A stretch of DNA of 64,000 nt from Hysterangium stoloniferum (Eukaryota; Basidiomycota; Agaricomycetes; Hysterangiales; Hysterangiaceae), in NCBI GenBank assembly GCA_015178975.1, contig WHVD01000041.1, positions 434,001-498,000 on the forward strand. The letters are read 5' to 3'. Shown in pieces: positions 11,815-60,990 of the stretch. A program made the translations under genes and the position numbers. A model generated the notes under the pieces. It was not told the origin of the DNA. It did not search any database and saw only the letters and a list, made by a program, of their open reading frames with translations. How positions within the stretch are numbered: position 1 is the first letter of the stretch; each line of letters opens with the position of its first letter.

Positions 11815-12766
11815 TATCTCAGTGTCATCCTGTTACGACCGTGTCGCAGCCATTCGGCCCCGAGGTTATCGCCACCTATCGACGATTCAAGTTATCGCTC
11901 AAGTCACCACATCGGAAACCATCGCCCCCGATGCTGACGTATGCTTTCGCGGTGATCAAACTCCATTTATGCCCACGTCAAAATATACTCGTACTATCTG
12001 GTTAAAACTTTTGATACGTCCCTTTTATTATGTTGATCCATTCTATCCTATGTTTCACATATGTCTATCTATATTTGTAGTCCTCGAACTGTTTCCTTTT
12101 ACCGTAATTCCGCTCTCGGTTATCATCGGCCTCCGAACTAATCATAAACTTCCCGTTCCTAGTCGAGCTTATTGTCAATACCCTGTTCTGCTCTTCTCCT
12201 AGTTAGTATTTTCTAGATGCTTGATACCTGTATATGAACCGGCTGTAGTTGTAGTTACTAGGCAATCAGAATATCGACTCAGAATACCCTCATACGTCTG
12301 TAGCAGTCTCATACTAAGGATCCCCTCATCCGCCTTCGCGTGCGCTCACCCACTCCCAGCCCTGACCCCTTGGCCCGACACTTGACTTATCCTTCGGTCC
12401 CGATCGGTATCTCACTGAAAGGAACTCTTTAGGATTAGTCTTTGCCTGTCCGAAACTTAAGGACACACTACGGATATTTGCAAGGGCGCAGCATATAAGC
12501 TGAAGCCAAGTCCTTCCGATCGGTCCCTGTCAGCCACCGACATTAGTCAGTTTTCAGTTCTTAACACATCCATTGAATCCTTATAAGAGTTAAAATTGAT
12601 TAGGGATCTTTTGAGGATCCTAAAGTTTATTGGATTCTAAACCCTGCAATCACATGGTAGATCCTTAACCGATTTTAACTCGGTTATGGATCCGATGAGT
12701 AATTGGCGGAGTTTATATAAAATATGCCTCTACTGAGGATCCTAAAAATTTTTGGAGCAAGGGCTT
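11467..12766. repeat. Fold-back element, copy B, interrupted by a solo LTR
   Basis: Arms at 11467-11523 (AAGCCCTTGCTCCAAAATTT...) and 12710-12766 are inverted complements. Inside, the motif GGATCCAACATGTGATTGCA and a following TTTAGAATCCAATAAA block repeat in direct and inverted form, so most of the sequence pairs with itself. The solo LTR at 11831-12566 sits in the middle. Confidence 0.6.
11831..12566 (+). mobile_element. Solo LTR, Gypsy family A, inserted in the fold-back repeat
   Basis: A 736-bp LTR from TGTTACGACCGTG to CAGTTCTTAACA, flanked by the perfect target duplication CATCC (11826-11830 and 12567-12571). Removing it rejoins sequence that matches, in inverted form, the fold-back arm at about 11715-11750. 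This dates the insertion after the fold-back element. Confidence 0.93.
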
Positions 12767-16800: not shown

Positions 16801-17340
16801 TCAATAAATGGGATTATCGGTCCTGGGGAAGGTTTTAGAGCAAGGTGCGGTGGGTGATAATGGGATGCGAATCCCGCTAACATTTGACCACAGCCAAATT
16901 TCGAGCGGCTATTGCGGGTGTCATTCCTACTATTGTTGAACTGTTGAACAACTCCAGCTGGTGCGTTCAATTAAGCGTAGTATCGGTCCTGGGTAACGTT
17001 TCAGAGCAAGGTGTGGTGTGTGATAATGGGATGGAAATCCAGCTGACATTTGACCAAGTTGAATTTCGAACCGCCATTGCGCCTGTCATTCCCGCCATTG
17101 TTGAACTGTTGAGAGACTCTAACGATAACGTTAGATCAAGGGTATTGTCTATCCTGGGGAAGGTTTCAGAGCAAGGTGCGGGACGTGATAATGGGATGGG
17201 AATGGAATCCAGCTCACATTTGACCACAGCCGAATTTCGAACCGCCATCAAACCTGTCATTCCTGCTATTGTTGCACTGTTGGAAGACACATATTTTCAC
17301 ATTCAAACCCAAGTTGTTGACCTGCTCGTTAAGCTAGCAG
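13897..17340 (+). repeat. Tandem array of about 18 HEAT exon + intron modules (period about 166 bp)
   Basis: Each module is a 117-nt exon followed by a 47-54-nt intron. Exons in order: 13897-14017, 14067-14184, (break), about 14717-14838, 14888-15004, 15054-15170, 15220-15342, 15392-15507, 15557-15673, 15723-15844, 15898-16014, 16064-16185, 16235-16351, 16399-16515, 16563-16679, 16729-16844, 16894-17010, 17059-17175 and 17230 onward. Introns start GTGCGGTGTGTGATAATGGG, carry a CTGAC branch-like motif and end TTTGACCACAG. Every exon begins in the second base of a codon (phase 1-1), so modules can be gained or lost without shifting frame. Introns are as similar to each other as exons are, so whole exon-intron units were copied. 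Confidence 0.88.
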
Positions 17341-17607
17341 CTCATGATGTGTACTTTGACATGCAAGTCAACCCTTTCCCCTCACCCATGTTTTCAAAGA
17401 TTGCCTTCGTGAAGTTATTATTGGCTGAAACTTACCACACCACTGCATATCTCTTGTTAATGCTGACAATGACACAGTTGTTTCAGCTGGAGGTACGTTG
17501 TCTCCTTACCAACATTAAGCTGCAGGTGGTCCTATTTGCATTGTGTCACCTATATTTAACTGCACCAACTTTGCCACATTGTTGTATGTTGTTGAAATCC
17601 TCTTGAA
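13897..17607 (+). pseudogene. HEAT/ARM-repeat protein gene built from amplified exons, partly degraded
   Basis: Exons encode a 39-residue helical repeat of the type AEFRAAIAPVIPAIVELLKD plus SDSDVRSSAVSVLGKVSEQG, matching HEAT repeats (two helices, conserved D and R between them). HEAT proteins are protein-interaction scaffolds; no catalytic domain is visible. From 17230 the repeat diverges (LLEDTYFHIQTQVVDLLVKL) and runs into a non-repeat tail (to about 17600), probably the true C-terminus. Several middle modules are damaged: an exon one base short (15392-15507), an in-frame TAA in 15557-15673, a lost donor after 15844, an in-frame TGA in 15898-16014, and a short exon with a stop in 16729-16844. 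Modules such as 14888-15342 and 16235-16679 are clean. Either a pseudogene or a gene that splices around bad modules. The stretch 14185-14716 between modules 2 and 3 is non-repeat (frame with LSIEEFLPLVRVAICVAVDF), origin unknown. Confidence 0.65.
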
Positions 17608-18288
17608 ATCTATAAATGTTTGTATCCTCTAGTTGTCATGAATGCTGATCTTGGCAGCCTGTGTAAGCCATACCATTCCTGAAGTTCCTCATATTTTCTT
17701 CTTTATAATACATTTCATCGGGGATATTTCTTCTAAGCAAATTCAAGTGTTAATCCTGCAAATGGATAGACATGAACTATTAACATCATTGTATTTTCCC
17801 AATATAGTTCATAAGTGGATAAATAGTGACAACTCCATCCAGTCCTACATATGGCTGATACTAGATCCAACATGTATTTGTGTCATTTGTTACCTTATTC
17901 ACATTTCTTCTGTCCTTTCCCAGTTCTTGGAAATATCAGTGCCAGTATTCAATACACAGATCTATCTTTGCTGTTTATCTGACAGCTACTGCAAAACCTA
18001 CATACATATGTCTATAACAAATATAACTTCTCAATTGATACAAACAGTGGATCAACTGAGGAATTGAGTGTTGGTCTCTGGGTATTTATAGCACATCGGA
18101 GACAAAGGATGCCATGACACCAAAATAAATGTTAGGAATAAAGAAAAGGAATTAATGGCTGTAAGACATGATCACAAATAGATGTTGTTCTAAAATCACA
18201 TGTGTAACTTGCCAATGACACAATCTGATTGTCTTGTTGTTTTGAGTATGTGTACATAAGATAACAATGACTGGAGTGAGTTTTCTGC
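17608..18288. other. Region downstream of the HEAT array
   Basis: Open frame of 141 codons at 17642-18067 (+) is hydrophobic and AT-rich with no motif I know. It could include decayed 3' exons of the HEAT gene. Nothing else seen. Confidence 0.3.
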
Positions 18289-22346: not shown

Positions 22347-23571
22347 TGTTAAGAGCAGAAACTGACGGATGTTGGCTGGCCGACAGGGACTGAACGGAAG
22401 GACTTGGCTTCAGCTTATGTGCTGTGCCCTCGCAAGTTACCATCGGGTGTCCTTAAATTTCGGGTGGGCGAAAACTAGTCCTGTCAAGTAAACCTCTCGG
22501 TAAACTACCAATCGGAAACCGAAGGATAAGTCGAGGGTTGGGCTGAGGGGTTGGAGACCAAGAGTCGGAGACTGAGAGAGTCGGGGACTGAGAGTCGGAG
22601 ACTGAGAGAGTCGGAGACTGAGAGAGTTGGAGACTGAGAGAGTTGGAGACTGAGAGAGTTGGAGACTGAGAGAGTTGGAGACTGAGAGAGTTGGAGATTA
22701 GAGGTTGAAGTCATAAATGTAGCTTGAATCGTAAATCGGATGGAGTTGGAATGTGGTGGTCGTGAATAGATAATGGAGTCAGAAATTAGAGGGGTATCTA
22801 AGTTGATCTAAGTTGATCTAAGTTGATATTCTAAGTTGATATTCTAAGTTGATATTCTAAGTTGATATTCTGATTGCCTAGTAACTACAACTACAGCAGG
22901 TTCATATACAAGTAACAGGCATCTAGAAAATACTAATGGGGAGAAGGGTATTAACAATAAGCTTGACTAGGAATGGGAAGTTTATGATTAGTTTGGAGGC
23001 CGATGATAACCGAGAGTGGAATTACGATAAAAGAAAATAGTTCAAGGACTACAAATATAGATAGACATATGTAAAACATAGGATTGAACAGATCAACATA
23101 ATGAAAGGGACGTATCAAAAGTTTAACCAGACAATACAACTATTTTGACGTGGGCGTAAATGGAGTTTGATCATCGCGAAAACATATGTCAGCTTCGGGG
23201 GCCGATGGTTTCTGAAGTGGTGACTTGAGAACGTTTAAGTGGCGATAACCTCGGGACTGATAGGGTTGCGACACGGTCATAACACGAGAAAAGGGAATAG
23301 TCCATGGGCCACAAGTATATATGGGCATATGTGAAACATAGAGTAAAACGGATCATCATAATGAAAGGGGATGTATCAAAGTATAACCAGATGGTACGAG
23401 TATATTTTGACAGGGGCGTAAATGAGGTTTGATCACTGTGAAGGTATACGTCAGTGTCGGTGTTCCAAAGGTTGCCAAAATAATGACTTGATCAATAACT
23501 TGGAACATCGATAGACAGTAGTATTCTCAGGGACCGTCAGATTGCGACATGGTTATGACACAGTCGTAACA
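22347..23571 (-). mobile_element. Solo LTR, family A, with an internal partial second LTR and minisatellites
   Basis: The whole 1225-bp block is flanked by the perfect target duplication CCCCA (22342-22346 and 23572-23576). It begins TGTTAAGAGCAG and reads as a family A LTR to 23284 (CATAACA), then repeats the last 290 bp of the LTR in diverged form to 23571 (CGTAACA). A 16-bp minisatellite GAGAGAGTTGGAGACT lies at about 22557-22695 and a short CTAAGTTGATATT repeat at 22799-22873. Confidence 0.85.
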
Positions 23572-25160: not shown

Positions 25161-25598
25161 GATTGTTTGATGAATAGCTTGAGAGCAACAACAAATATAA
25201 ACAAAGTGTTGGTGTATCAAACATAGTGTTTGATCATGGCTATGTCTTCCGTGGAAAGATATGTTTGAAATTAAATTAAATTTTCAGCAGAAATTGAAGG
25301 AAGCCATATCATCCAACAGACTCAGGATCTCCAAACAAGGCTTAGAAAGGGGAGGAACCACCAGAGTCAATACAGAGTAAAGATGTTGCTCAAATAGACC
25401 TTTGATCAATGACAAATTGAGTTGGGATGGCCTTTGTTGAAGAATGATACAGATATGACTAACACATCAAGACTTGTAAATTTTGGAACTCCAGAGAACT
25501 CCTTGACACTTGTTTAAAATCTGGGTCACAATAAAAAAATGTGATGAAAGCATCCTGACACGTGATGGCTTTTGAGCAAGTAGCAAAGCTTCACCATC

Positions 25599-26322
25599 TG
25601 TTATGACCGTGTTGCAACCCTATCGGTCCCGAGGTTATCACCACTTATCAACGTTTCAAGTCACCATCTCGGAAAACATCGGCCCCCGAAGCTGATGTAT
25701 GTTTTTGCGAAGATCAAACTCCGTTTACGCCCATGTCAAAATAACTCGTATTGTCTGGTCAAACTTTTGATACGTCCCCTTTATTATGTTGATCCGTTCA
25801 ACCTTATGTTTCACATATGTCTATCTATATTTGTAGTCCTTGAACTATTTCCTTTTATCATAATCCCACTCTCGGTTATCATCGGCCTCCGAACTAATCA
25901 TAAACTTCCTGTTCCTAGTCAAGCTTATTGTTAATGCCGTTTTCTGCCCTTCTCCCCATTAGTACTTTCTAGATGCCTGTTACTTGTATATGAACCCGCT
26001 GTAGTTGTAGTTACTAGGCAATCAGAATATCGACTCAGAATACCCTCATACATCTGTAATAGTCTTATACTAAGAATCCCCCCATCCACCTTTGTGTGCG
26101 CTCACCCACTCCCGGCCCCGACCCCTTGGCCCGACGCTCGACTTGTCCTTCGGTTCCAATCGGTATCTCGCCGAAAGGAGCTCTTTAGGGTTAGTCTTTG
26201 CCCGCCCGGAATCTAAGGACACCCTACAGATATTTGCGAGGGCGCAGCACATAAGCTGAAACCAAGTCCTTCCGATCGGTCCCTGTCGGCCACCGACATT
26301 AGTCAGTTTTCAGTTCTTAACA
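25599..26322 (+). repeat. 5' LTR of Gypsy family A element
   Basis: TGTTATGACCGTG to CAGTTCTTAACA. It contains a TATA-like TATATGAACCC at 25987 and the predicted RNA start and self-priming sequence at 26020-26030. Confidence 0.95.
25987..26030 (+). promoter_or_regulatory. Predicted LTR promoter: TATA box and start region
   Basis: TATATG at 25987-25992 lies 33 nt before AATCAGAATAT (26020-26030). That 11-mer is the exact complement of the putative primer site after the LTR, which in self-priming elements marks the 5' end of the RNA. Both motifs are kept in the solo LTR copies. Confidence 0.6.
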
Positions 26323-26324
26323 GT

Positions 26325-26335
26325 ATATTCTGATT
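26325..26335 (+). promoter_or_regulatory. Putative self-priming primer binding site
   Basis: Two bases after the 5' LTR the sequence ATATTCTGATT is the perfect 11-nt complement of AATCAGAATAT at 26020-26030 in the LTR. No match to a tRNA 3' end is evident. Tf1/sushi-type elements prime with the first 11 nt of their own RNA, and the length and place agree with that mechanism. Confidence 0.6.
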
Positions 26336-26360
26336 TCACACTCGCATTTTCCATTTAATC

Positions 26361-27659
26361 ATGCCCCCGAGAAGAAATGCCAAGCCAAGCGGTGAAGCAG
26401 AATCTTCCACTCTCAAGTCTCCTTTCATGTATACAGCCCGAGCTACTCAGAGAACCCCGCTACCAGAAACCTCCGAAGAATCTCGCTTTGTGGAGATTAC
26501 CGGCGATGCTGAAGAAGTAACTGAAGCAACTGATCCCGAAGCAACTGAAGAGATTAACAATCAACCAGTCTCGGAACACGAACCCGAGGATGGCGACCAA
26601 CCTCAGGCTAGTGGCTCCAAGAAGTCCACAAAAAAGAAACCGGCTCTCGACCCTGAAGAGACATGGGAATTGTTTTCAGGTACTCTAGGATCCCTTAATG
26701 AATTCCTTAAAAGCAATATCAAGGAAAAGGAACCTGGGCAAACCCGAGTCAACAAACCCGAGCCATTCACTGGCTCAAACCCAAAGAAATTGCCGACATT
26801 TCTTATGCAATGTCGATTCAACTTTCGGGACCACCCGGCTGCATTCGCAACGGATGACCGAAAGGTAAACTTCGCACTCTCATACCTTAAGGATTCCGCA
26901 GCAGCCTGGTTTGAACCCGCATTCTCTGGCCTCACCTCCGAAGACCCCAATTGGCTTCACGATTGGGATGCCTTTGTTGAGGAACTCGAAACCAACTTCG
27001 GTCCCTACGACCAGACCAGTAATGCTGAAACTGCGCTTTCTAATCTCAAAATGAAAGACACTCAGCGCATCACCGATTACATCGTCCAGTTCAACAACCT
27101 CACCGCGCGTTGTGACTGGGGCGATTCGGCCCTCCGTTACCAGTTTTACTCCAGCCTTCCGTCTCGCCTCAAAGATGAAGTTTCCAAAGGAGAGACTGGC
27201 AAGCCAAAGACCCTCCCTCTCATGCGTCTGAAAGCCCAAAATGCAGACGCCCGATACTGGGAACGATGTTCGGAAATTAGTCGTGAGAACCCTTCGGATA
27301 AGAAATCGTCGGACAATAAGAACGCCAACAAGTCTGGTAATCAAAACACCAACAACAGTGGCAATTCGACCTCCGATAAGAAGTCCGAAAACAAAGGGGC
27401 TAACGACAAAAAAGGCAAGGGAAAACAGTCGAATAAGTCTCAAGACAAAGACAAACCCGACTTAACCGGCAAACTCGGCTCCGATGGCAAGCTCCTACCA
27501 CAGGAAAAGCAACGCCAAATGGACAACAACCTTTGTTTGTTGTGCGCAGATCCCGGACACCGAGTCGCTGCATGCTCAAAAGCCACAAAAGCCCGATCGG
27601 CCAATATGGCCACGACCTCACCACCGGCCAAGCCGGCTGCCGAGTCAAAAAAAGATTAA
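26361..27659 (+). CDS. gag: Gag of Gypsy family A element
   Basis: 432 codons starting MPPRRNAKPSGEAESS, in one open frame. An acidic, disordered N-terminus (about residues 1-115) precedes a Gypsy-type capsid region (about 130-320) with AAWFEPAF and DWDAFVEELETNFGPYDQTS. A low-complexity K/N/S-rich linker follows, then a CCHC zinc knuckle CLLCADPGHRVAAC near residue 395. Gag packages the element RNA into cytoplasmic particles. The pol region follows in another frame overlapping its end, as is usual in Gypsy elements. Confidence 0.85.
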   Translation: MPPRRNAKPSGEAESSTLKSPFMYTARATQRTPLPETSEESRFVEITGDAEEVTEATDPEATEEINNQPVSEHEPEDGDQPQASGSKKSTKKKPALDPEETWELFSGTLGSLNEFLKSNIKEKEPGQTRVNKPEPFTGSNPKKLPTFLMQCRFNFRDHPAAFATDDRKVNFALSYLKDSAAAWFEPAFSGLTSEDPNWLHDWDAFVEELETNFGPYDQTSNAETALSNLKMKDTQRITDYIVQFNNLTARCDWGDSALRYQFYSSLPSRLKDEVSKGETGKPKTLPLMRLKAQNADARYWERCSEISRENPSDKKSSDNKNANKSGNQNTNNSGNSTSDKKSENKGANDKKGKGKQSNKSQDKDKPDLTGKLGSDGKLLPQEKQRQMDNNLCLLCADPGHRVAACSKATKARSANMATTSPPAKPAAESKKD

Positions 27660-30600
27660 GCAACTCTCTAGATTCCATGCGGTTGGAGAGTTGCATTGAA
27701 TCTCCTCACACACTGGAAAATTGTCACCTTAACGCATCCACCTTGTATGATCCTAATTCTTTGTTCATAAATCTTACTTCGGAACCTCTCGGGAATCTCA
27801 CTTTTCGAGCCCTCATAGATTCAGGTTCAACCCATTGTTTTATAGATACAAGTTTTTCCCAAAAAAATCAGTTAAAAACCTATGCAATAGACCCGATTCC
27901 GCTCCGACTCTTTGATGGTACCTCAAACTCCATAATCTCGCAAGCCTGTGAACTCCGACTTCGGTTCCCATGTGGAACCTTTCAGACAGTTACGTTTTTT
28001 GTAACACAGTTGGACCCGAGTTGCTCCGTGGTTCTAGGTCATAACTGGCTCACCCGCTACAATCCGTTGATTGATTGGGTATTGGGCAGTATCCATTTCC
28101 GAAACCCGTCGGTGCCCGATACGACTGGTCCATTTCTGCCTGTTTCGGCAAACATGGCCTCTACAGCACCTCCAGCCCCCGTGGCAAATCTGAGCTCTCC
28201 ACCGCCCATCTCTCTAATAAATGCCGCAGCTTTTATGAGAGCCATCAAGTTGGACGGCTCCCAAGCATTTACAGTCAATCTTAAAATTGACGAAGTCACC
28301 GGTCGCTTTGCATCCCCAGTGGCTGAACCGATCGCAGATTTGGAAGGTGTTCCCAAAAAATACCATGAATTTGCAGATGTCTTCAGTAAACAAAAAGCAG
28401 ATCGACTCGCCCCTCACAGGCCTTACGATTTGAAAATTGATATTGAAGATGGTTCACATCCGCCCCTAGGCCCAGTTTATCCTCTCTCGCAGTCCGAATT
28501 ATCGGCTATCCAAGATTTCTTGGACAAACATTTGGCTATAGGTTTTATCCGACCCTCAAAGTCTCCTTATGGAGCCCCTGTCCTATTCGTTTGGAAAAAA
28601 AGACGGTTCCCTTCGACTTTGCGTTGACTTTCGAGGACTAAATGCGATCACTTGAAAAGACAAGTACCCATTACCACTATTCTCTGATTTACTTGATGCC
28701 CCTCGGAAGGCCTGAATCTATACAAAGATAGATCTCAAGCATGCCTATCATTTGGTTCGGATCACTGAAGGCGACGAATGGAAAACGGCTTTTTGCACTC
28801 ACTATGGCTCTTTTGAATGGTTAGTAATGCCTTTCGGCCTCACCAACGCTCCGTCGGTCTTTCAACGTTTTATCAACAATGTTTTTTTCGACCTCCTCGA
28901 CGTTTTTGTCATTGTGTACTTAGACGACATCCTCATATTCTCCAAAGACCCTACACTTCATGACGAACACGTTCGTGAAGTTCTCCGAAGACTCCAAAAG
29001 CATGGTCTCTTTGTGAATGGTAAAAAATGTTCTTTTGATGTCGACACAGTTGAATATTTAGGTTTTATGATGGACCTGACGGTCTCTGCATGGACAACTC
29101 TAAAATTCAAGTCATTCAAGATTGGCTGGAACCCCGAAAGGTTAAGGATATTCAATCCTTTTTAGGCTTTGCCAATTTTTATCGTCATTTCATTCACAAC
29201 TACTCAAAAATTACCGTTCCGCTCACTCGTCTTACTCGCAAAGACGCCCTGTGGATTTTCTCCGAAGAATGCCGATCGGCATTCCAGGAGTTGAAAAGTG
29301 CGTTTACATCTGCCCCTATTTTGTCGCATTGGAAGCCCAACGTTCACGATAAGGAACTACTCGCAATATTTGAAGCTTTCAAGACATGGCGACATTATTT
29401 GGAAGGCTCGGCCCACCCGGTAGATGTCATTACAGACCACAAAAATTTAGTTTACTTTTCAACCACAAAACTTCTCACCCATCAACAAGCTCGATGGTCC
29501 GAATATCTCTCTGCTTTCAACATGGTAATTCGTTTCCGTCCCGGCCGCCTTGGTGGAAAACCCGACGCTATGACTAGACGATGGGACATCTATCCTAAAG
29601 AGGGGAGTAGCGACTATGCCACAGTTAATCCGCATAATTTCAAGCCTATGTTTTCATCGGAACAACTGTCTGCGTCTATCCGAGCCACTTACCTCATTCA
29701 TCCAGTCTTGCAAAGTGTTATCCTTATGGATACCGAAAAATTACATCAAGACATTCTATTGGCAATCCCATTAGACCCAGTCACCAAAGCACACCTCGAT
29801 AACCCGTCCGATCCCGATCAACCCCGATGGTCATTAGACTCACAAGGTTTCATTAGACTTGACAATCGCATTTATGTACCGGACTCCGACACCCTTCGGC
29901 TGCGAATCCTACAACATAAGCACAACCACCCAATCTCGGGACATTTTAGCCTCAATAAGACCCTCTCACTCATTAGAAGAGAATATACATGGCCCGGCAT
30001 CCGAGATTTCGTTAAGCACTATTGTAAATCTTGTACTACATGTTTACGCTCTAAATCACAGCGACACAAACCATATGGCCTACTCAAACAATTACCAATA
30101 CCGGAAAAACCTTGGAACTCGATTTCTATGGATTTCATCGAGCACCTACCGGTATCCGAAGGTCACACAGCAATCCTAGTTGTTGTGGATCGGCTTACCA
30201 AACAAAGTATTTTCATTCCAACATATGACACAATAACATCTGTACAGTTAGCTGAACTATTCGTCACCCATGTATTTTCCAAGCATGGCGTTCCATCGCA
30301 TGTCACATCCGATCGCGGATCCGAGTTTGTCTCTCACTTCTTTAGGTCACTCGGGAAAGCACTAGATATGAAGCTACACTTCACTTCTGGCTATCACCCG
30401 GAAGGCGATGGCCAAACCGAACGCATGAATCAAACCTTGGAACAATACATCCGTGTCTATTGCAACTATCAACAAGATAATTGGAAATCACTACTACCGC
30501 TAGCCGAATTCGCATGTAACAACGCACCAAATGCCACTACTGGCATTTTGCCCTTCTTCACAAATAAAGGCTACAACCCCAACATCGCAATCCACCCGGA

Positions 30601-31210
30601 ACGCGATCTCGCATCCGCCCGTGCTCAAGACTTTGTTATAAACCTTGACGAGCTACATCAAGAACTTCGTAAAACTATCACAATGGCTCAAGAACGATAC
30701 CAATGGTCTGCAGATAAGAACTGACTTCCGCCTCCTGACTTTAAGATCGGAGACCGAGTATTGGTTAAAGCTGAGTTTTTCCGAACTACTAGACCCTCTA
30801 AGAAGCTCTCTGAAAAATATTTAGGTCCTTTTGAAGTCATAGCACAAGCCGGCACACTTTCATGGACGCTTCGGCTCCCCGACAACATGCATGCAGTGCA
30901 CCCGGTATTTCATGTATCTATGTTAGAACCTTGTGTCCCTAACAGTATACCGGATCACATACAACCACCACCTCCACCCGTGATTATTGATGGGGAACCA
31001 GAATTCGAGATATCAGAGATCCTAGACTCAAAAATTGACAATTGCCGACGCTCATGCAAATTACTTTATTTGGTCAAATGGGCTGGCTATGAAGGTACAG
31101 ATGAAGAAACTTCATGGATCCTAGCTACCGAGCTCGGTAATGCCTCAGAAATCGTTTTAGGGTTTCACCAAGCTTATCCGAACAAACCCAGTCCTCTCAA
31201 TTCTTTATAA

Positions 31211-31485
31211 GCCTATCATGCGGTATCTGACCTTTTCCTGACTATGCCTTATGTTTTCACTCTATGATTTGTTTGTTTTAAAGAAAAACCGATATATTTC
31301 TACTATCTAAGTTTCTTCCTCTACAACTTCTCCCTCCTCTCTGGCCTCCGAACCCTCCCCTGCACCGACAGCCACCGATACCGCACCACCGACCTTTTCC
31401 GACACCCCAATCTCATGCCCAATTCCATCGCAACTCGAGACTTCCATTGCTCAAGCTGACCTCCAAGAGACTCGATAACACTGGT
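31211..31485. other. Spacer between pol and the antisense gene, Gypsy family A
   Basis: The 3' ends of pol (+) and of the antisense gene (-) converge here, so it would hold the terminators of both. No feature is recognisable. Confidence 0.4.
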
Positions 31486-32287
31486 CTACTTCTTCAGCCC
31501 GATGCCCAAAAGTCGCAACTGCTCGGTCATGAGCCCTTGATGTCGCAGAGTCTCATTTCGGAACCGAGTCGTCTCCGAGAAGTATGTCCGCATAAGGCGG
31601 TTTTGCTCTTCTAGAGCATCGGCCTGTCGCTCCTGGAATGATCCATCGGCCCCCGGGAAGACACACCCAAGCTTCTGATCGGCGCACTCTTGGCAAGTGT
31701 GGCCCGGACCATTGGCCCAGGGATGGCAGGTTTGACCCCGTTTCGTGCACCAATTGCACTTAGGGTCATTTTCGGGCCCCGCCTTGGGGACCTGCTTTTG
31801 TTTCTATAGGAAAATTATTTAGAAAGGTTTTTTATTTAGGAAACCGAACCCACCTTGGGGCTCGACGGCCCCGGTGCATCCTCCTCATCCTCCTCTCCCT
31901 CTTCGTCATCGGACTCCGAAGGCATCACAGCCTTGCGCTAACAAATATTGTCAGTAAGGTTTGCAAAAGATACCGGAGCCGACTTACCTTTCCCTCCTGC
32001 TTCTTTTTCGTCGCCTCCTCCCACGCCCGATCGGCCTCCTGCTGCTTGTTCTTTGCAAGTACTGCTTCCCACTGCTTGCGCACAGCCTCTTCCACCGCCT
32101 GTTTCTTCTCCTCGGCCTCGATGGCCGCCAACTCCTCCTTCTCCTTCTGCTCCTCCTCTTCACGCGCCTTTCTCTTCTGCTCGAGTATACGCTGACGCTC
32201 CTGCGCGTTCGCCGTACCACTCGGGACCGACATGGGCGTGACTGTTAACCTAACCGGGAAGGGTTTCGACCCCGAGCCTATGGTCAT
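31486..32287 (-). CDS. Antisense accessory gene in the Gypsy element: coiled-coil protein with Zn2Cys6-type cluster
   Basis: Minus strand, between the chromodomain end and the 3' LTR. Three exons (32287-31988, 31937-31854, 31803-31486) are separated by two 50-nt introns (GTAAGT...TTAG and GTGGGT...ATAG), both phase 0, giving 233 codons without an internal stop. Start is at MTIGSGSKPFPV; a second Met (MSVPSGTANAQ) lies 18 codons later. Residues about 25-95 are a K/E/A-rich coiled coil (ERQRILEQKRKAREEEEQKE), exon 2 is strongly acidic (SESDDEEGEEDEEDA), and exon 3 holds CNWCTKRGQTC plus CQECADQKLGC. The spacing C-x2-C-x6-C-x10-C-x2-C-x6-C fits the fungal Zn(II)2Cys6 DNA-binding pattern. A further helical segment ends the protein. 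It appears whole while pol beside it is broken. Function unknown; DNA or chromatin binding is an inference. Confidence 0.7.
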
Positions 32288-32447
32288 GGTGGTTAAGGGA
32301 AGAGAAGTAGAATTTCAAGCGCCAGGACCCCTCAAATTTTTATATGTGAAATTTTGCCGAGTCACATGATGTTTTGACACACCCAGCCGTACCCGACAAG
32401 TTTTTACGTACAGGATCTAGATTTTCGGCCTTCTTGGGATTTCGGCC

Positions 32448-32461
32448 AAAAGGGGAGATAC
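32448..32461 (+). promoter_or_regulatory. Polypurine tract of Gypsy family A
   Basis: AAAAGGGGAGATAC directly precedes the 3' LTR, the usual site of the plus-strand primer. Confidence 0.65.
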
Positions 32462-33185
32462 TGTTATGACCGTGTCGCAACCCTATCGGTCCCGAGGTTA
32501 TTGCCACTTATCAATGTTTCAAGTCACCATCTCGGAAACCATCGGCCCCCGAAGCTGACGTATGTTTTCGTGAAGATCAAACTCTGTTTACACCCACATC
32601 AAAATAACTCGTATTGTCTGGTCAAACTTTTGATACGTCCCCTTTATTATGTTGATCCGTTCAACCTTATGTTTCACATATGTCTATCTATATTTGTAGT
32701 CCTTGAACTATTTCCTTTTATCATAATCCCACTCTCGGTTATCATCGGCCTCCGAACTAATCATAAACTTCCCGTTCCTAGTCAAGCTTATTGTTAATGC
32801 CGTTTTCCGCCCTTCTCCCCATTAGTACTTTCTAGATGCCTGTTACTTGTATATGAACCCGCTGTAGTTGTAGTTACTAGGCAATCAGAATATCGACTCA
32901 GAATACCCTCATACGTCTGTAATAGTCTCATACTAAGAATCCCCCCATCCGCCTTCGCGTGCGCTCACCCACTCCCGGCCCCGACCCCTTGGCCCAACGC
33001 TTGACTTGTCCTTCGGTTCCGATCGGTATCTCGCCGAAAGGAGCTCTTTAGGGTTAGTCTTTGCCCGCCCGAAATCTAAGGACACCCTACGGATATTTGC
33101 GAGGGCGCAGCACATAAGCTGAAGCCAAGTCCTTCCGATTGGTCCCTGTCGGCCACCGACATTAGTCAGTTTTCAGTTCTTAACA
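32462..33185 (+). repeat. 3' LTR of Gypsy family A element
   Basis: Same length as the 5' LTR, followed by the CCATC target duplication. Confidence 0.95.
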
Positions 33186-33190
33186 CCATC

Positions 33191-35439: not shown

Positions 35440-36310
35440 ATGCTGGGGGGCCAATGATAGAAATCATACTAGTTGGGAAGTCTGACCCTACAAAACAAAT
35501 GGAGCTTAGCTTCAATGTATGTGTAGTGTCCTCACATGAACTGTTAAGGTGCTCTGGTATTTCAAACAGAGCAGACAGTAGGATGGAGACTAAAGACAAC
35601 ACTTAGCTCAATTGACCAGAGGACTAAAATACTAAGAGTCATGTAGGTAAGAGTCATGGCTTGTGGATGACATCTTCAAGAGGATTAAGAGAAGAGTAAG
35701 TAATCTTAAGTTGATATTCGAACTGGAGAACTATAGCATACATGAGGGGGTTTTCATACAAAGTATGACAGATGAATGGAAGGCTGACCAAGGAAGTGAG
35801 AAGTCATGATGGGTCAAAGGAAGCAGGAAAAAGGGCAAGGATCAACTAAGACTAAATGTGATAAAGACACAAGTATTCTAAAAGTTGTGAGGTGGCAAAT
35901 AGAAGATACATACAGAATAGGTGATGGGAGAGCATCAGGATGGAGATGGAATGGGATGGCCAAAAGGGTAATCTGCAGAGGGACAGGTGTCAGGGCATTG
36001 CAGGCAATGACACCATGGTCAGGGATACTGATAGCAGGGTGCCAGATGGTTACAAGGATAAAACCAAGTTGCAGTGGTCTGAACTGATAGGATTCTAACA
36101 TATTCCCCCACTTTGTTATTAGTGTCTTGGACTCTAGTCTTTGGCAATTCCAGACTCTAATCATTGTCAGCTTTAGACTCTGGCCCTCCAGGTAACAGCT
36201 AAGTCTTGATTACTTTGTTTACAATGTACTTCTTGTTGGTTTCCAAAATACCAGAGCACCCAGACAGTTCATGTGAGGGTGCAACACATAAGTTGAAGCC
36301 AAGATCCACT
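35440..36310. repeat. Pair of facing, degenerate LTR ends
   Basis: 35510-35560 (GCTTCAATGTATGTGTAGTG, then CTCACATGAACTGT) and 36250-36305 (inverted: ACCAGAGCACCCAGACAGTT, GTGAGGGTGCAACACATAAG) are inverted copies of an LTR core related to families A and B. They seem to be remnants of two LTRs in opposite orientation. Confidence 0.45.
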
Positions 36311-36365
36311 TGTCTTAGAACTGAACCCCCAGTTAAGTCCAGGTCTTTGATCTCAACTTGGAGTT

Positions 36366-36830
36366 CATGTTTTAATCAAAGCTGAATTCTTCTGGACTAT
36401 TTGACCTACCAAAAAGCTTGCTGAGAAATATCTTGGCCCTTGTGAGATTATGGCTCAAGCTGGCACACACCCCTTGGCCCTTTGGATTCCCAATACCATG
36501 TGTGGTACATCCTGTCTTCCCCATCTCTATGTTAGAACCCAGCATGCTGAATACCATTCCTGAATGCATTCAACTTCCAACTCCACCAGTCACTATCAAC
36601 AGACAGCCCAAGTTTGAAATTGAAGCTGTTCTAGATTCAAAAATTGATAATTGGTGATGCACCTGGAAGCTACTCTACTTAGTTAAGTGATCTGGCTATG
36701 AAGATTCTGATGAAGAAACATCTTGGATTCTTGCTACAACTTGGAAATGCTACTGAAGTTGTTTCAGACTTCCATGGTGCAAATGTGGGTAAGCCAGGAC
36801 TGTTATCTAACTTTTAACAGTTTGCCAGCC
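36366..36830 (+). mobile_element. Chromovirus fragment (integrase end and chromodomain)
   Basis: Translations match the end of Gypsy family A pol: TKKLAEKYLGP, HPVFPISMLEPSMLNTIPEC, IEAVLDSKIDN and a chromodomain remnant ending DEETSWILATT. Strongly decayed. No LTR is attached, although a family A LTR lies 700 bp downstream in the same orientation. Confidence 0.75.
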
Positions 36831-37523
36831 CTCCAATAATTGCTATCCCTTCATTTTAGATTCACCTCATTACTCTCAGTTTGTCCTATGTCTCTCTGGC
36901 CTTGCTTTAGTCCTCTTAGTTCATTGTCTGTTTTTGGTCCGCTGATGTCTTTTGTTTTCTTACAGTCCACACTTGTTGTTCTTCTCATAGATTTACATTT
37001 TATTTAATAGTCATGCTCTCCAGATCTTCCACATTTTGCCCCTGTACACTTTCTCCTATGTTGGCAGGCCTTGTCCTTTTTCTCTGCCATCCCTCTATTC
37101 CCACCATCATTACCTCCCAGTCTATACTCTGCCCAAAGCCTCCCTCATCTTTTTGGCCCACCACTGTTCCCTCCACTTAGTACTGTACCAAGCCATGCAT
37201 GGCCTCCAATATCTCCTTCTACATCTTGCTAATATCCCACAACACTTCCACCACAGGCTCCAATGTTGTTGATGCATAGCTGCACCCCTTCTTCACCCTG
37301 TTGCACTGTGCACAAGCTAGGCCCATGGTGTGCAGTGGACCACTGCTACTGTGCATCTTGTACAGGACAGCAGACCCATGACAGCAGGCTTCCTATAAAC
37401 ACATTAGCAAGACAAAAAAGAATAACAAGAATGAGGTTACTCACCAGTCAGCTCCCACCAACTCCCCCAGTTCATTCTCTTCCTCCCCTCCACCTTGTCA
37501 TCCTGGCATTTCCACTTTCCCTG
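36831..37523. other. Pyrimidine-rich relic, possibly former Gypsy interior
   Basis: Lies between the chromodomain fragment and the family A LTR, at the place where the full element has its post-pol spacer. No coding frame is convincing. Confidence 0.35.
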
Positions 37524-37528
37524 CAACC

Positions 37529-38685
37529 TGTTATGACCGTGTCGCAACCCTATCGGTCCCGAGGTTATCGCCACTTATCAACGTTTTCAAGTCACCACTT
37601 CGGAAACCATCGGCCCCGAAGCTGACGTATGTTTTCGCGATGATCAAACTCTGTTTACGCCCACGTCAAAATAACTCGTATTGTCTGGTTAAACTTTTGA
37701 TACCTCCCTTTTATTATGTTGATCCATTCAATCCTATGTTTCACCTATGTCTATCTATATTTGTAGTCCTTGAACTATTTCCTTTTATTGTAATTCCGCT
37801 CTCAGTGATCATCGGCCTCCGAACTAATCATAAACTTCCCATTCCTAGTCAAGCTTATTGTTAATACCGTTTTCCGCCCTTCTCCCCATTAGTATTTTCT
37901 AGACGCCTGTTACTTGTATATGAACCCGCTGTAGTTGTAGTTACTAGGCAATCAGAATATCGACTCAGAATACCCTCATACGTCTGTAACAGTCTCATAC
38001 TAAGAATCCCCCCATCCGCCTTCGCATGTGCTCGCCCACTTCCAGCCCCGACCCCTTGGCCCAACGCTCAACTTGTCCTTCAGTCCTGATCGGTATCTCA
38101 CCGAAAGGAACTCTTTGGGATTAGTCTTCGCCCATCCAAAATCTAAGGACACCTATGGATATTTGCAAGGACACAGCACATAAGCTGAAGCCAAGTCCTT
38201 CCGATCGGTCCCTGTCGGCCACCAACATTAGAGGTTATCATCGGCCTCCGAACTAATCATAACCTTCCTGTTCCTAGTCAAGCTTATTTGTCAATACTGT
38301 TTTCCACTCTTCTCCTAGTTAGTGTTTCCTAGATGCGGAATACTTGTATATGAACCCATTGTAGTTGTAGTTACTAGGCAATCAGAATATCGACTCAGAA
38401 TACCCTCTTATACCTTTAGCAGTCTCATACTAAATACTCTACTATCCACCTCTGTGTGCGCTCGCCCACTCTCAGTCTCCGATCCCTTGGCCTGACACTC
38501 AACTTATCCTTCGGTTCCGATCAGTAGTTCTGCCGAGAGGTATTCGTTAGGACTAGTCTTCGCCCATCCGAAATTTAAGGACACCCGACGGAAAGTTGCG
38601 AGGGTGCAGCACATAAGCTGAAGCCAAGTCCTTCCGATTGGTCCCCGTCAGCCTACCGACATTAGTCAGTTTTCAGTTCTTAACA
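37529..38685 (+). mobile_element. Composite family A LTR (one LTR plus a second partial LTR)
   Basis: 37529-38231 follows the family A LTR nearly to its end, then at 38232 the sequence jumps back to GGTTATCATCGGCCTCCGAA and runs through a second LTR 3' part to CAGTTCTTAACA at 38685. Flanks CAACC and GTAAG do not match, so this is not a simple solo LTR; recombination between two insertions is likely. Confidence 0.8.
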
Positions 38686-39279: not shown

Positions 39280-41747
39280 TCACTCCCCCTTTTAAGGTAT
39301 GGTGTCCTGACATGGTGTTGCTGCCAGTAGAGTCCAGGCTTGACCTTTTGAAACCCTGGAATCTGGGTCACTCGTACTGTGGTGGTTGGAGGTTGCCTTG
39401 ATCCTCGAATAGGGCCCTGGATTGTTACTGCCTCTGGATGTTGTGTGTGGAAGTCTGCTGTCAAGGCAGGGGTGAATACCTTATGTCCTGGTTCCCAGCT
39501 ATTATGTTCCATGCTGAAACCTTGCCATTTTATGAGGTATTCAATTCGCCCATATCTCCATCTACTGTCCAATACCTTCTCAACCTCATACTCAACCTCT
39601 TCTTCCACCACTATTGGATCTGGGGGTGGTTTAGCATGGTGGCCAATGATCGGATCCTCAATCTTTGGTGTCAGTTTCACCACATTGAAGACTGGGTGAA
39701 GTCTATTCATTGACCTGGGCAGTTCCAACCTATAGGCAATTGGTGTGAGACCTGTTCAAGTACCTTAAATGGCCCTAATCAAAGGTGTGAAAGCTTCTTT
39801 GAGGGTTGGGCCATTTGAATGTCACTGGCATCTAGGAAAACTTGGTCTCCTGCCTTGAAGTTTGGTGCTGGGGTTCACCGATGGTTATAGTACTTTGCCA
39901 TCTCATCCTTTGCTTTAACCAGTGCTGCTTTTGCCTCTTCAAGAGTTTCAGCCATTCGATCTCGAAAATCATTCACTGATTCTACCTTGTTGGATTGAAG
40001 GTCTGGTTCAAAACCCATTTGTGGATGATGTCCACAGTCTAACATGAATGGTGTCTGTTGTGTAGATGCATGGATATGGTTGTTATATTGGAATTCTGCA
40101 AGTGGGAGAAGATCAACCCAGTCTTATTGGCGCTGATTTACAAAAATCCGTAGATATGTCTCCAACTCATGATTGACTCATTCAGTCTGCCCATCAGCCT
40201 AAGGGTGGTAGGCTGTGGAATAGGCTGGTTGAATACCAAGGAGTCAGTATAATTCCCGAGTGAATTGACTTGCAAACTGTGATCCACAATCTGAGATAAC
40301 TCGCTGTGGAAGTCCATGATGCTTCCACACATCCTTGAAAAAGATCCAAGCTGCACCAACAGAGTCAACAGTCTTATGTGTAGGTAGGAAGTGACCACAC
40401 TTTGTCATGAGATCTACAATCACCATCACTGAATCATACCCTTGGGATTCAGGTAGGTCAACTATGAAGTCAACACTAGTTGTATCCCATCAATCTTCTG
40501 GTGTGACATTTGGGTGTAATTCCCCAATTGGGATTCAACGCTGGAACTTGGTGTGCATACAGATGTCACAGGTCTTGACATACTGCCCTATATATTGTGA
40601 TATACCTGGCCACCAAAAGTTGCGACTGATCAGCTCTAAGGTCTTCCATTGTCCTGCATAGCCAGTGACCCGAGAGTCATGATGCTGTTCCACAATTCTA
40701 CACCTCAGTTCTGGGTCAGTTGGTACATATATTTTTCCCCGATACAATACCAGTCCATCCTCCTCTGACCATTCCATTAATCTGATGGATCGGCCACCAG
40801 ATCTTCGGAGCTCCTTCACTGCTGTGATCGCTGCTTCCTCCTGTTCACCCGTCTCATTTCCTTGACGAATAGCAGTGAGGAATTCACGTTCTGGCCCATG
40901 TATTGACACACCCTCCATGGCTTGAATTGCAAAAAACTCTGGTTTAAGTAGGGTTATGTCTGAGTTGTCACCCTCACCAGAGCCATAGTCAGGCTGGCGA
41001 GAGAGTGCATCAGTTTTGCCCATCGAGTGTCCTGGTCAGTGGTGCAGTTGGAAATCAAAATGTGCCAGGAACAGGGACCATCGGGCCTGTCTTCGATTTA
41101 ACTTCTTTGAGGACATGAAGTACTCAAGATTTTTGTGGTCAGTCCACACCTCCACTGAGTGTCGTGCCCCCTCTAGGAAATGTCTCCACTCATCAAAGGC
41201 ATGGATCACTGCAAGCATCTCTTTGTCATGGATCTCATAATTGTGTTTGACAGCTGACAGGCTTTTTGAGTAAAAGGCAACAGGATGCCACTTTCCATCG
41301 TCCTGCTGTTGTAAGAGGACTGCTCCAGTCGCATGGTCTGATGAGTCAGCTTCAACTCGAAATGGTTTTGAGTCATCGGGCATTGTCAGAATCAGTGTAT
41401 TTGTAACCAGATCCTTGAGGAAAAGGAAAGCTTGGTCCTCTGTTATAGTCCACCTCCAAGCTGATTCCTTGTTTGTGAGGTCAAACAGTGGTCGTGCATG
41501 GTGGGAGAAATCTGCTATAAATCGCCTATAGAAGTTGGTAAACCCAAGGAAGGCTTGTACCTCTTTCTGGCTAGTTGGAGTAGGCCAATCACGCACACCT
41601 GACACCTTGATTGGGTCCATCTCTGCTTGGTTTTAAGATATGACTAGGCCCAGGTATTCAATCTTTGTTCTTTCAAACTCACACTTCTCTGGCTTAAGGT
41701 AGAGCTTATACTCACGAAGATGCTCAAGGACCAGTAATAGGACACAG

Positions 41748-42480
41748 TGTTACGACCATGTCGCAGCCGTTCGGCCCAAGGTTATCACCACCTATCGACG
41801 ATTCAAGTTATCGCTCAAGTCACCACATCGGAAACCATCGCCCCCAATGCTGACGTATGCTTTCGCGGTGATCAAACTCCATTTACGCCCACGTCAAAAA
41901 TACTCGTATTATCTGGTTAAACTTTTGATATGTCCCTTTTATTATGTTGATCCGTTCTATCCTATGTTTCACATATGTCTATCTATATTTGTAGTCCTCG
42001 AACTATTTCCTTTTACCGTAATTCTGCTCTCAGTTATCATCGGCCTCCAAACTAATCATAAACTTCCCATTCCTAGTCGAGCCTATTGTTAATACCATTT
42101 TCCGCCTTTCTCCCCGTTAGTATTTTCTAGATGCCTGTTACTTGTATATGAACCCGCTGTAGTTGTAGTAACTAGGCAATCAGAATATTGACTCAGAATA
42201 CCCTCTTATGTCTGTAGCAGTCTCATACTAAGGATCCCCTCATCCGCCTTCGCGTGTGCTCACCCACTTCTGGCCCCGACCCCTTGGCCCGACACTCGAC
42301 TTGTCCTTCAGTCCTGATCGGTATCTCGCCGAAAGGAACTCTTTAGGATTAGTCTTCGCCCGTCCTAAATTTAAGGACACACTACAGATATTTGCAAGGG
42401 CACAGCACATAAGCTGAAGCCAAGTCCTTCTGATCGGTCCCTGTTGGCCACTGACATTAGTCAGTTTTCAGTTCTTAACA
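41748..42480 (+). mobile_element. Solo LTR, family A, nested in Gypsy family C
   Basis: A 733-bp LTR from TGTTACGACCATG to TTCTTAACA with the perfect target duplication CACAG (41743-41747 and 42481-42485). It lies in the pol region of family C, in opposite orientation to its host. Confidence 0.94.
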
Positions 42481-44810
42481 CACAGCAATGTTCCTCAAGT
42501 GTCTTGGTAAAGATGAGGATGTCATCCAGGTAGACACATACGACTCCTTCAGCAATCAAATCCCGAAAAATATCATTCATCATAGTCTGGAAGGTTGCTG
42601 AGCTGTTAGTGAGACCAAAAAACATGACTAAGGGTTCAAACAACCCTCTATTTGTTCGGAAGGCAGCCTTCCACTCATCCCCCTCTTTTATGCGAACATT
42701 GTTGTAGCCCCATCTAACATCAAGCTTTGTGAAATACCATGCCCCTTTCAATTGATTTACCAGCTCTACAATGAGTGGGAGTGGATATCGATTTTTTATG
42801 CTTTGGTCATTCAGTATACAGTAATCTTGGACAAGTCGAAGGGAGCCATCCTTCTTCTTGATGAAGAAAACTGGGGATGCCATGGGTGACTTAGAAGGAT
42901 GTATCCGACCAGTTGCCAAGTTTTCAGCAATAAAGATATCCAGCTCTGTCTGCTCATTGAGGGACATAGGGTAGACCTTACAATTGGTTGATTTTGCATC
43001 AGGGATTAGTTCAATTGCATGGTCCCAATGTTTTCGATCTGGTAATGAATCAAATGACTCCTTAGAAAACACATCTTCAAAGGTGTGGAGATACTCTGGG
43101 ATGACATCTCGGAAACCTTTTGGACTCAATGTGTTGAACCTTGCACTAGCCTCTGCTAATCGCTGAGACACTGTAGCAGATGCTTGAATCTGACTTGGAG
43201 TCAGTTCTGGGTGCAGCACTGTGACAAATACCCGATCTCCATCTTCAATCGAGTCATCTGTTTGGTCCTGCACCTCATCAGGCTGATCAGGTAGCAAGTC
43301 AGGAATTGGCTCTTCTATTTCCTCAGATGTGAAGATTGGGGCTGGGGCATCTCTGCAAGCTTGTAAACATCTGATCTCTTCACATGCCCGGAGGGTTGAT
43401 ATTTTACACTCTTTACAGTGTGGGTTGCAATGAGTCATCTTGACTTCTTGTGTCTGCCAATTTATCTCAGGATTGTGATCCTGAAGCCAGGTATAGCCAA
43501 GTAAAAGGGATCCCTTCCCAAGCTTGGTGACTGCAAATAATGCCTTCTCTGAGTGGTCCTTGTAATGGAGGACCAGTTCAGCAACTTCAGTGATTGAACC
43601 TGCTTCATTGGGTGTCCCATCTATATTGTACACATGGACTGGGTAAAGGAGTGATCATGTGGCAATTCCATTTTCATGCACATAGTCTCAGTCAATGAAC
43701 AAACCAGTTGCACCGCAATCAACCAATGCACGAGTCGATTGGAGGAGACCAGTATCAGTTGTTTGGAGTTCAACCTTTAGGTGTAATGATTTGGCAGTTG
43801 CAGTTGAGGCAATAATGAAAGATTTTGGAAGACGGTGTTCCCAAACTGGTCTTCTACGATGTGAATGGACAGAAGGGGGCTTGGATGGAGTAGGTATGAC
43901 TTGAATTCCAGTGCCCTCACTCAATGGAGGTTCAACTTCAGATGTATTAACTGTACATACATCATCAACTGAGAGGACACTGAATCTATTTGAAAGTGGC
44001 AGCGAGGGCATACCCTTCACTCGCTGCTGTCGGGAAAACCCAAAACAGGCTGTAGATCAGCCCCTCACGGAGAATCATCAGCTTCAGCCACCCTACTACA
44101 AGCAATTCGGACATCCGCTTCAGCAAGCAGGATATCCATAGCCATGTCCTGTCCTTCCTGATCAAGGCTAGTGAGTAGCAAACGGATCCTCTGCAGTTTA
44201 CGAGGGCAGTCTCGACTAAAGTGACCCGGTTGACAACATTCGAAGCAGAGGGTCAAAGGAAGGCTGCAGCCTTTGGTTGCATCGATGTCCATCGCATCGA
44301 TTGGTTTTGAGAAAGGTAGAGTCAGTGTAGGGTGTGGGGGAAGTGGGGGAACGACGTGAGGGAATATTGGGGGTTTCGGTGTGACCGGTCACATTGTGAC
44401 ACCTGCTGAATGAAAGATTTTGTTCACATTTCAGTTTCAGTCAAAGCGGGAAGTGGCGTCGTACCAGCCTTGCTCATTGTCATCATTCGGGGAGTTTTCC
44501 ATCGTCACAACCTGGGTCTGGATACTCAGTAAGAGGCATGTCGATATTTCATCACGATAGCTAATGAGTCTTTGTAACCTGCAAGGTCAACGAGTTCTCG
44601 AAACTCATCAGTGTACTCATCGACCATTCTTCGGGCTTGATGGTATGTCGTTCCTTCTAATTTGATATGGGCCATAGCTGCTTCATCAGCTGGAAAGAAT
44701 TCACACTCAAAGGTCTGCATGAAGGTCTCCCACGAAGGCATTGTCTCTCCTTGACTCCACAACTGATTCACAAAAAGGGTGGCTTGACCGGTCTTCATGA
44801 ATGACACCAC

Positions 44811-60826: not shown

Positions 60827-60990
60827 GAACCAGACACTCAAGAATCCCATATTTTCCCTCTAAATAGACCAAAACCCTGACCAGCTCTGAAGCACAAAGC
60901 AGAGGAAGTGTGTGAGGAAGCTTTGTTTGAGAAGCAATCTGAAAGAATACTCAGAAAACAACCCAGGTTGAATTATAAAGAGACTTGAAG

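Follow-up and report, generated by a model that had tools for sequence, protein, structure and literature searches.

An antisense, intron-containing gene with a predicted Zn2Cys6-like cysteine cluster in chromoviruses of the fungus Hysterangium stoloniferum

A stretch of 64,000 nucleotides of the genome of the basidiomycete Hysterangium stoloniferum (assembly GCA_015178975.1, contig WHVD01000041.1, positions 434,001 to 498,000 of the forward strand), hereinafter the window, contains a full-length Ty3/gypsy chromovirus, which spans positions 25599-33185 and is flanked by 5-bp target-site duplications (CCATC). Between the stop codon of its chromodomain open reading frame (ORF; 31210) and the start of its 3' long terminal repeat (LTR; 32462), an additional gene is located on the minus strand, tail-to-tail with pol. 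This gene reads from an ATG at 32287 to a stop codon at 31486 and consists of three exons, encoding 233 residues, and two introns of 50 nucleotides (nt) each. The initial annotation of the window had given these coordinates and this product correctly, and both the acidic linker and the cysteine cluster that it described were found, in exon 2 and exon 3, respectively. The features of the gene are as follows.

31988-32287, minus strand: exon 1, start codon and charged N-terminal region (from the alignment of copies)
31938-31987, minus strand: intron 1, 50 nt, GTAAGT...CTGAC...TTAG; splice sites conserved in all 30 aligned copies
31854-31937, minus strand: exon 2, beginning RKA, with the acidic linker and SSPK; same length in 30 of 30 copies, similar exon in the family D described below
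31804-31853, minus strand: intron 2, GTGGGT...ATAG, 50 nt in the window and 46-52 nt among copies; splice sites likewise conserved in all 30
31486-31803, minus strand: exon 3, encoding the cysteine cluster and the helix at the C-terminus; ends prematurely in the window copy
31663-31758, minus strand: cluster C-x2-C-x6-C-x10-C-x2-C-x6-C; none of the six cysteines lost in any of the 30 copies
31510-31641, minus strand: long helix after the cluster, a possible dimerising coil (single-sequence AlphaFold2)

All relatives described here come from one genome, that of the host (111 Mb, 554 contigs). A DNA search with the window gene gave 290 first-look candidates, the best 40 of which were scored, all with at least 90% identity; the recurrence of the gene in other copies had been left as a check by the initial annotation, and homologous copies abound in this genome. 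The first alignment consisted of the window copy and the 29 best others, picked by gene similarity (n = 30), and 20 additional, more diverged copies brought the family set to 50 loci, including the window copy. In every aligned copy, intron 1 begins with GTAAGT or GTGAGT and terminates with TAG or CAG, intron 2 begins with GTGGGT and terminates with TAG, and all six cluster cysteines are present. The lengths of exons 1, 2 and 3 match those of the window copy in 29, 30 and 29 copies out of 30, and the length of intron 2 deviates from it in 19 copies. Kept splice sites, near-invariant exon lengths despite the variable intron 2 and the retention of six cysteines place the gene model far beyond chance. 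Three diverged cassettes of the gene (A, B and C) occur in the family, with B represented by L031 and L033-L037. The introns of A and B are only 50-51% identical, which is near random, yet their splice ends, their length range (48-53 nt) and the branch-like sites persist (five B copies modelled; the script for gene models of diverged A-C copies required AAG ahead of the second donor).

The gene had been described as whole and as remaining open in spite of the broken pol. The product of full-length copies has 292-300 residues, and the window copy, truncated at 233, differs from a full-length one by one frameshift and one stop; this copy is thus not whole, and its C-terminal fifth has not stayed open. 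Read from the second ATG, the frame reaches 274-276 residues in 12 of the 30 copies and 267-269 in two more, as compared with 215 in the window copy. The frame is unbroken in 14 of the 30 copies, including the reference, a figure that does not represent an unbiased rate because the copies were picked by gene similarity. For the same reason, and because rearranged copies inflate the counts for pol, a sparing of the gene after insertion was not accepted on the basis of lesion counts (27 in 26.1 kb of the gene in 30 copies, nine of them in L003 alone; 29 in 13.4 kb of the chromodomain end in 30 copies; 41 in 19.4 kb of the integrase end in 27 copies).

Evidence of selection comes from comparisons between the cassettes. 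The ratio of nonsynonymous to synonymous substitutions (dN/dS) was calculated by NG86 for nine A, four B and two C copies, chosen among 29 gene models (from 49 rows); both C copies are short, and L035 is frame-shifted at its end. The gene gave 0.144 for A-B (dS 1.83), 0.120 for A-C (dS 1.07) and 0.160 for B-C (dS 1.59), and the chromodomain end of the same copies gave 0.073, 0.177 and 0.093, respectively. Differences between seven A and three B copies amount to 20.7, 23.4 and 51.5% at the first, second and third codon positions. Within family A, dN/dS is 0.33-0.36, a ratio inflated by CpG decay, with many changes at arginine CGN codons, and therefore the claim of selection rests on the A-B, A-C and B-C comparisons. 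Integrase rows were left unused as unreliable, L031 being interrupted in that region and L018 offering few codons. These ratios indicate that purifying selection has maintained the protein to about the same degree as the pol end; the earlier suggestion of a gene under selection is thus borne out, and the ratios are not neutral. The conservation that defines the aORF-3R class is likewise present, with dN/dS of 0.12-0.16 in the gene against 0.07-0.18 in the chromodomain end.

The position of the gene is also constant. A chromodomain match was found in 49 of the 50 family loci (L041 is without it), and the gene is antisense to and downstream of the chromodomain in all 49 scorable ones; beyond the gene, an LTR in the expected sense follows in 46 loci, L042, L043 and L047 being the exceptions. 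A chromovirus search by PF24626 gave 2638 first-look candidates, and among the best 150 the downstream stretch was read for four. An antisense gene is present in the much diverged elements L071, L072 and L074 (family D). Its exon 1 is charged, its acidic exon 2 begins RKA, and its exon 3 contains C-x2-C-x6-C-x9-C-x2-C-x6-C; the introns of 48-50 nt lie at both positions used in the window gene, in models for which the script required RKA and AAG at the exon junctions. The reading frame of L074 breaks past the cluster. Comparison of the D and A-C profiles by hhalign gave a probability of 95.5 and a score of 62.3, which none of 60 cysteine-keeping shuffles reached, and, together with the similar exon junctions, this score indicates that the D gene is homologous to the A-C gene.

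A protein search with the D exon 3 gave 1334 candidates, and about 110 of the best 150 (counted by eye) are without an internal stop. When the best-150 lists for SH3_Tf2-1 and for the gene were crossed, 91 pairs lay within 3 kb; in all 91 the gene is on the opposite strand and downstream, none is on the same strand, and the gap is 478-505 bp in 90 pairs and 2846 bp in one. The 59 entries left in each list, unmatched among the best 150 of the other, are uninformative. As the family A loci were retrieved via the gene itself and the D lists hold the best 150 each, these counts concern gene-carrying copies and leave copies without the gene uncounted. The placement between the chromodomain and the 3' LTR given in the initial annotation was thereby confirmed, and the position required of the aORF-3R class, antisense and between pol and the 3' LTR, is that of the family loci and of family D alike.

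One chromovirus of another clade and chromodomain type (L073, C441:1414200-1416090) has no half of the cluster on either strand in 1.9 kb downstream, a single element and hence a thin control. A decayed chromovirus remnant at 36300-37528 of the window, with one CpG in 1229 bases, has a chromodomain at 36378-36767 (68%), and antisense to it stand two C-x2-C-x6-C halves (37364-37332 and 37314-37282) that do not share a frame; it may represent a third, older gene-carrying family. Directly after this remnant, at 37529-38231, lies a solo LTR of the window element's family. L070, a fragment related to the remnant, has no cluster half and stops about 0.4 kb past the chromodomain. A scan of IMG/VR gave no relative, and a scan of prokaryote genomes gave one match, to the charged region (residues 29-109, 43%) in a bacterial metagenome-assembled contig (L051), which was not used.

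The introns would pass through reverse transcription since genomic RNA carries their complement, in an orientation that cannot be spliced, as the replication cycle of such elements implies. Being kept through retrotransposition, they therefore point to a need for an antisense promoter of the gene's own. Conserved motifs are located where such a promoter would be expected, and we regard them as a putative promoter.

32337-32346, minus strand: putative TATA box of the antisense gene, TATAA[AG][AG] in 45 of 48 copies
32361-32381, minus strand: upstream box TGTGTCAAAACATCATGTGAC, TCAYGTGAC in 44 of 48 copies, with a comparable box in family D
32414-32447, no strand assigned: conserved block with two TTTCGGCC, adjoining the polypurine tract, GGCYGAAAATCTAGATC in 39 of 48 copies

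The promoter alignment comprised 48 copies, L041 and L042 having been excluded beforehand. The TATA motif is missing from L029, L043 and L047, and TCAYGTGAC from L026, L043, L047 and L048; L043 and L047 appear rearranged in this region. Family D has TGTGTCAAA...TCATGTGA and TATATAAAA there, in the same order as in the window family. When the B copies L033-L037 are compared with the window element, identity is 88-98% in the ten bins of 100 bases that precede 31000, falls to 49-82% between the chromodomain end and the middle of the U3 region of the LTR, and returns to 80-96% over the remaining LTR in copies that have it. This profile indicates that a block comprising the antisense gene, the putative promoter and the first part of U3 was exchanged, presumably by template switching.

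The carrier element itself has the gypsy order of protease, reverse transcriptase (RT), RNase H and integrase, a chromodomain and LTRs, all of which characterise a chromovirus. SH3_Tf2-1 scores 63.9 bits (Pfam cut-off 30) and Chromo 24.8 bits, just below its cut-off of 25.1. Its LTRs are 724 bp long and 96% identical to each other.

25594-25598, no strand assigned: left target-site duplication CCATC, read directly, equal to 33186-33190
25599-26322, plus strand: 5' LTR, 724 bp, TG...CA, 96% to the 3' LTR
26361-27659, plus strand: gag ORF, 432 amino acids, open (Pfam Retrotrans_gag, 4.1e-12)
27533-31210, plus strand: pol, in pieces (Pfam matches)
27533-28627, plus strand: protease piece of pol (Pfam match)
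28752-29165, plus strand: RT piece of pol (Pfam match)
29090-30724, plus strand: RNase H and integrase piece of pol (Pfam match)
30761-31210, plus strand: SH3_Tf2-1 and chromodomain piece of pol (Pfam), ORF stop at 31210
32462-33185, plus strand: 3' LTR, with CGG-N3-CCG dyads at 32543, 32746 and 33150
33186-33190, no strand assigned: right target-site duplication CCATC, read directly

The window contains additional LTRs or LTR fragments from this family, with 78-90% identity, at 8949-9521, 11831-12566, 22347-23284, 60081-60827 and 61758-62497. Pieces of a different gypsy element (RT and RNase H matches) occupy 41036-43633 on the minus strand and enclose another solo LTR of the window element's family (41748-42480). 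A copia-type remnant (Retrotran_gag_2, gag_pre-integrs) is located at 3573-5873, also on the minus strand, and the part 15000-18000, with a piece of a HEAT-repeat gene (16884-17606), contains CCGC/GCGG 34 times against 12.9 expected.

The cysteine spacing of the window and D clusters fits the definition of the fungal Zn(2)-Cys(6) domain (PF00172), C-x2-C-x6-C-x(5-12)-C-x2-C-x6-8-C. In the single-sequence AlphaFold2 model of exon 3, two short helices at the cluster halves are followed by a long helix, which is the layout of the binuclear zinc cluster fold; residues 55-98 are helical, with a predicted local distance difference test (pLDDT) score of 84-91 from residue 61 on, whereas the mean pLDDT is 71 and the cluster blocks, at 58-68, are of low confidence. 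A sequence search of the PDB with the window protein gave no match, and a profile search gave three weak matches to the charged helix (E 0.008-0.065, FEN-1-like).

CGG half-sites are the binding sites of Zn2Cys6 proteins. In the U3 of the window element, CGG-N0..5-CCG dyads occur three times against 0.21 expected, and in four other A/B copies three or four times against 0.40-0.59 expected from dinucleotide shuffles. D copies have direct repeats CGG-N2..7-CGG (13 against 3.5 expected in L071, 7 against 1.8 in L072) and also dyads (5, 4 and 3 against 0.9-1.6). The base preceding CGG is mostly T in A/B copies and in one of the two C copies, in two of five cases in the other C copy (L050), and in 1 of 30, 0 of 21 and 0 of 16 cases in the D copies. 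TCGG/CCGA reaches 2.1-2.4 times the dinucleotide expectation in A, B and C element stretches (LTR, gag, pol and gene alike); it is not enriched in host flanks or in L073, and lies below expectation in D stretches. In the copia remnant of the window it occurs 9 times against 11.6 expected. CpG decay by context, followed in 22 copies, differed mildly, with 0.18 against 0.22-0.32 for the majority of other contexts, and for CCGG and GCGA it was nearly as low as for CCGA; such context-dependent decay is probably too mild to explain the TCGG/CCGA enrichment alone.

Summarizing these data, it may be concluded that the antisense gene is almost certainly a functional protein-coding gene belonging to the element. 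Its recurrence in one place and its codon-level conservation indicate an accessory gene of the chromovirus lineage rather than a stray host gene, and the same place in related elements together with selection suggests that the gene probably provides the element with a regulator of its own. Of the roles suggested initially, regulation or silencing agrees best with these data. In our opinion, the protein is rather probably a nuclear DNA-binding factor that would act on the element's own LTR: the gene would be transcribed from its own antisense promoter, the protein would enter the nucleus and dimerise through the C-terminal helix, the Zn2Cys6-like cluster would bind CGG half-sites arranged as dyads or arrays in U3, and this binding would control transcription of the element or shield it from silencing. 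If the protein does bind DNA, we incline slightly towards an activator or anti-silencer instead of a self-repressor. A more specific proposal, a self-recognition factor comparable to VANC and expressed from its own promoter, is tentative and rather unlikely as a whole; its targets would be CGG sites in U3, inverted and mostly preceded by T in A/B, and in direct arrays preceded by A, G or C in D, so that cassette exchange would let each family address and de-silence its own copies.

Several results weigh against regulation by CGG binding. Pfam Zn_clus (PF00172) gave no match at E <= 10 in eight A-C proteins of the window family, and the D protein matches it weakly (8.2 bits, cut-off 21). The profile scored 27.3 against 11 host clusters, a value equalled or exceeded by 5 of 40 cysteine-keeping shuffles (mean 19.4), so the similarity to host Zn2Cys6 domains appears to be mostly one of cysteine spacing, and Foldseek gave no PDB match for the exon 3 model at E <= 0.001. 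The Zn2Cys6 type proposed initially thus stands for the spacing and fails for the Pfam domain; the protein is best described as Zn2Cys6-like, and its sequence does not place it in the family. Dyads are weak in the C copies (one in L050, p 0.064; two in L045, p 0.030), the direct repeats of L074 (4 against 1.6 expected, p 0.094) are not significant, and since the CGG and TCGG patterns were picked after several had been tried, all p-values are guides only. An unrelated gypsy remnant of the window has TCGG/CCGA 14 times against 7.1 expected, and therefore the motif need not mark targets of this protein. Finally, L032 is a recombinant with a B-type gene and an A/C-like promoter and U3, which counters strict co-inheritance of gene and U3.

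The contrary TCGG control also raises the weight of another explanation, namely that the protein serves some other step, as a nucleic-acid chaperone, in nuclear import of the pre-integration complex or in the choice of target sites. A charged helical protein with a cysteine cluster would suit such work, and nuclear import has been discussed, along with regulation of retrotransposition, for antisense extra ORFs (PMC7264820, in the part available). An own antisense promoter would imply a separate gene product and not a part of the particle, and CGG dyads or arrays are present in U3; we consider this explanation possible and not very likely. That antisense RNA rather than protein matters, pairing with genomic RNA or feeding RNA silencing and so lowering the activity of the element, seems very improbable. 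Antisense transcripts of other elements have been proposed to act so (PMC7264820, same part), but constraint at the codon level over three cassettes, near-invariant exon lengths and kept splice sites are not needed for an RNA function, and selection on the protein makes this explanation insufficient alone.

The initial annotation had also thought of a captured host factor. The genome does contain host genes with Zn2Cys6 clusters. None of its 76 Zn_clus places overlaps a place of the gene (compared by eye among the matches listed, which for one of the two gene searches are a part of 253). A host gene captured once and passively carried, or host DNA adjoining the element, is scarcely credible in view of hundreds of candidate places, two diverged families and fixed spacing, and of between-cassette dN/dS ratios that lie far below 1 at dS values exceeding 1; position and selection have already refuted passive capture and point to a gene of the element. 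That the frame is open by chance, lying opposite an untranslated region with GC skew, has negligible probability. Nothing beyond the skew speaks for it, and splice sites, exon lengths, cysteines, dN/dS and the gene of family D with its placement have already refuted it.

Among known systems that resemble this one, VANDALs are DNA transposons, and HBZ of human T-cell leukaemia virus type 1 (HTLV-1) contains a basic leucine zipper coil. One close likeness is brtn of the Boty-like elements of Botrytis cinerea, an extra antisense gene in an element with gag, protease, RT, integrase and chromodomain (PMC4227169, PMC8365987), located between pol and the 3' LTR (PMC7264820). As far as the accessible parts of these descriptions go, brtn too is an antisense extra gene of a fungal chromodomain element, compared here by description only, and in the same parts of PMC4227169, PMC8365987 and PMC7264820 neither a cysteine cluster nor introns nor a promoter of its own is mentioned. 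Plant Retand, Grande and RIRE2 elements also have antisense extra ORFs (TRP28, gene23): gene23 of Grande is described as possessing a separate promoter upstream and as giving a product located in the nucleus (PMC7264820, in part), and the TRP28 ORF, surveyed across 617 assemblies, was found in 97% of Retand clusters and is thought capable of DNA binding (PMC11963269, in part). Retand differs in being a non-chromovirus lineage with another protein domain; PF04195, the TRP28 domain, is absent from Pfam matches at E <= 10 of the A-C and D proteins. According to the part of the report available, VANC of Arabidopsis VANDAL elements targets short element motifs, often within tandem repeats differing between related families (PMC5735166). 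It resembles the proposed factor by analogy only, as an element-encoded protein with targets inside the element, and it differs in its DNA-transposon carrier and unrelated protein domains. HBZ, likewise compared from partial descriptions, is an antisense retroelement gene with a nuclear product (PMC11963269), and its difference is that the HTLV antisense promoter lies within the 3' LTR (PMC7264820).

A literature search, whose coverage left out most subscription journals, found no cysteine-cluster antisense gene in fungal chromoviruses. Antisense extra genes are already known in LTR retrotransposons, and the cysteine-cluster version in a fungal chromovirus is a new variant, with good evidence of selection. 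In the parts available, two sources call the role of such genes in LTR retrotransposons unknown (PMC7264820, PMC11963269). The present gene offers a tractable case. Its protein is compact and has a recognisable candidate DNA-binding cluster, and its introns require a promoter separate from that of the element; it occurs in two diverged families at hundreds of candidate places, and candidate target sites specific to each family adjoin it. It makes the question of transcription or anti-silencing factors encoded by retrotransposons directly testable. It is also a warning for annotation, since Zn2Cys6-like gene models in fungal genomes rich in transposable elements may be retrotransposon genes.
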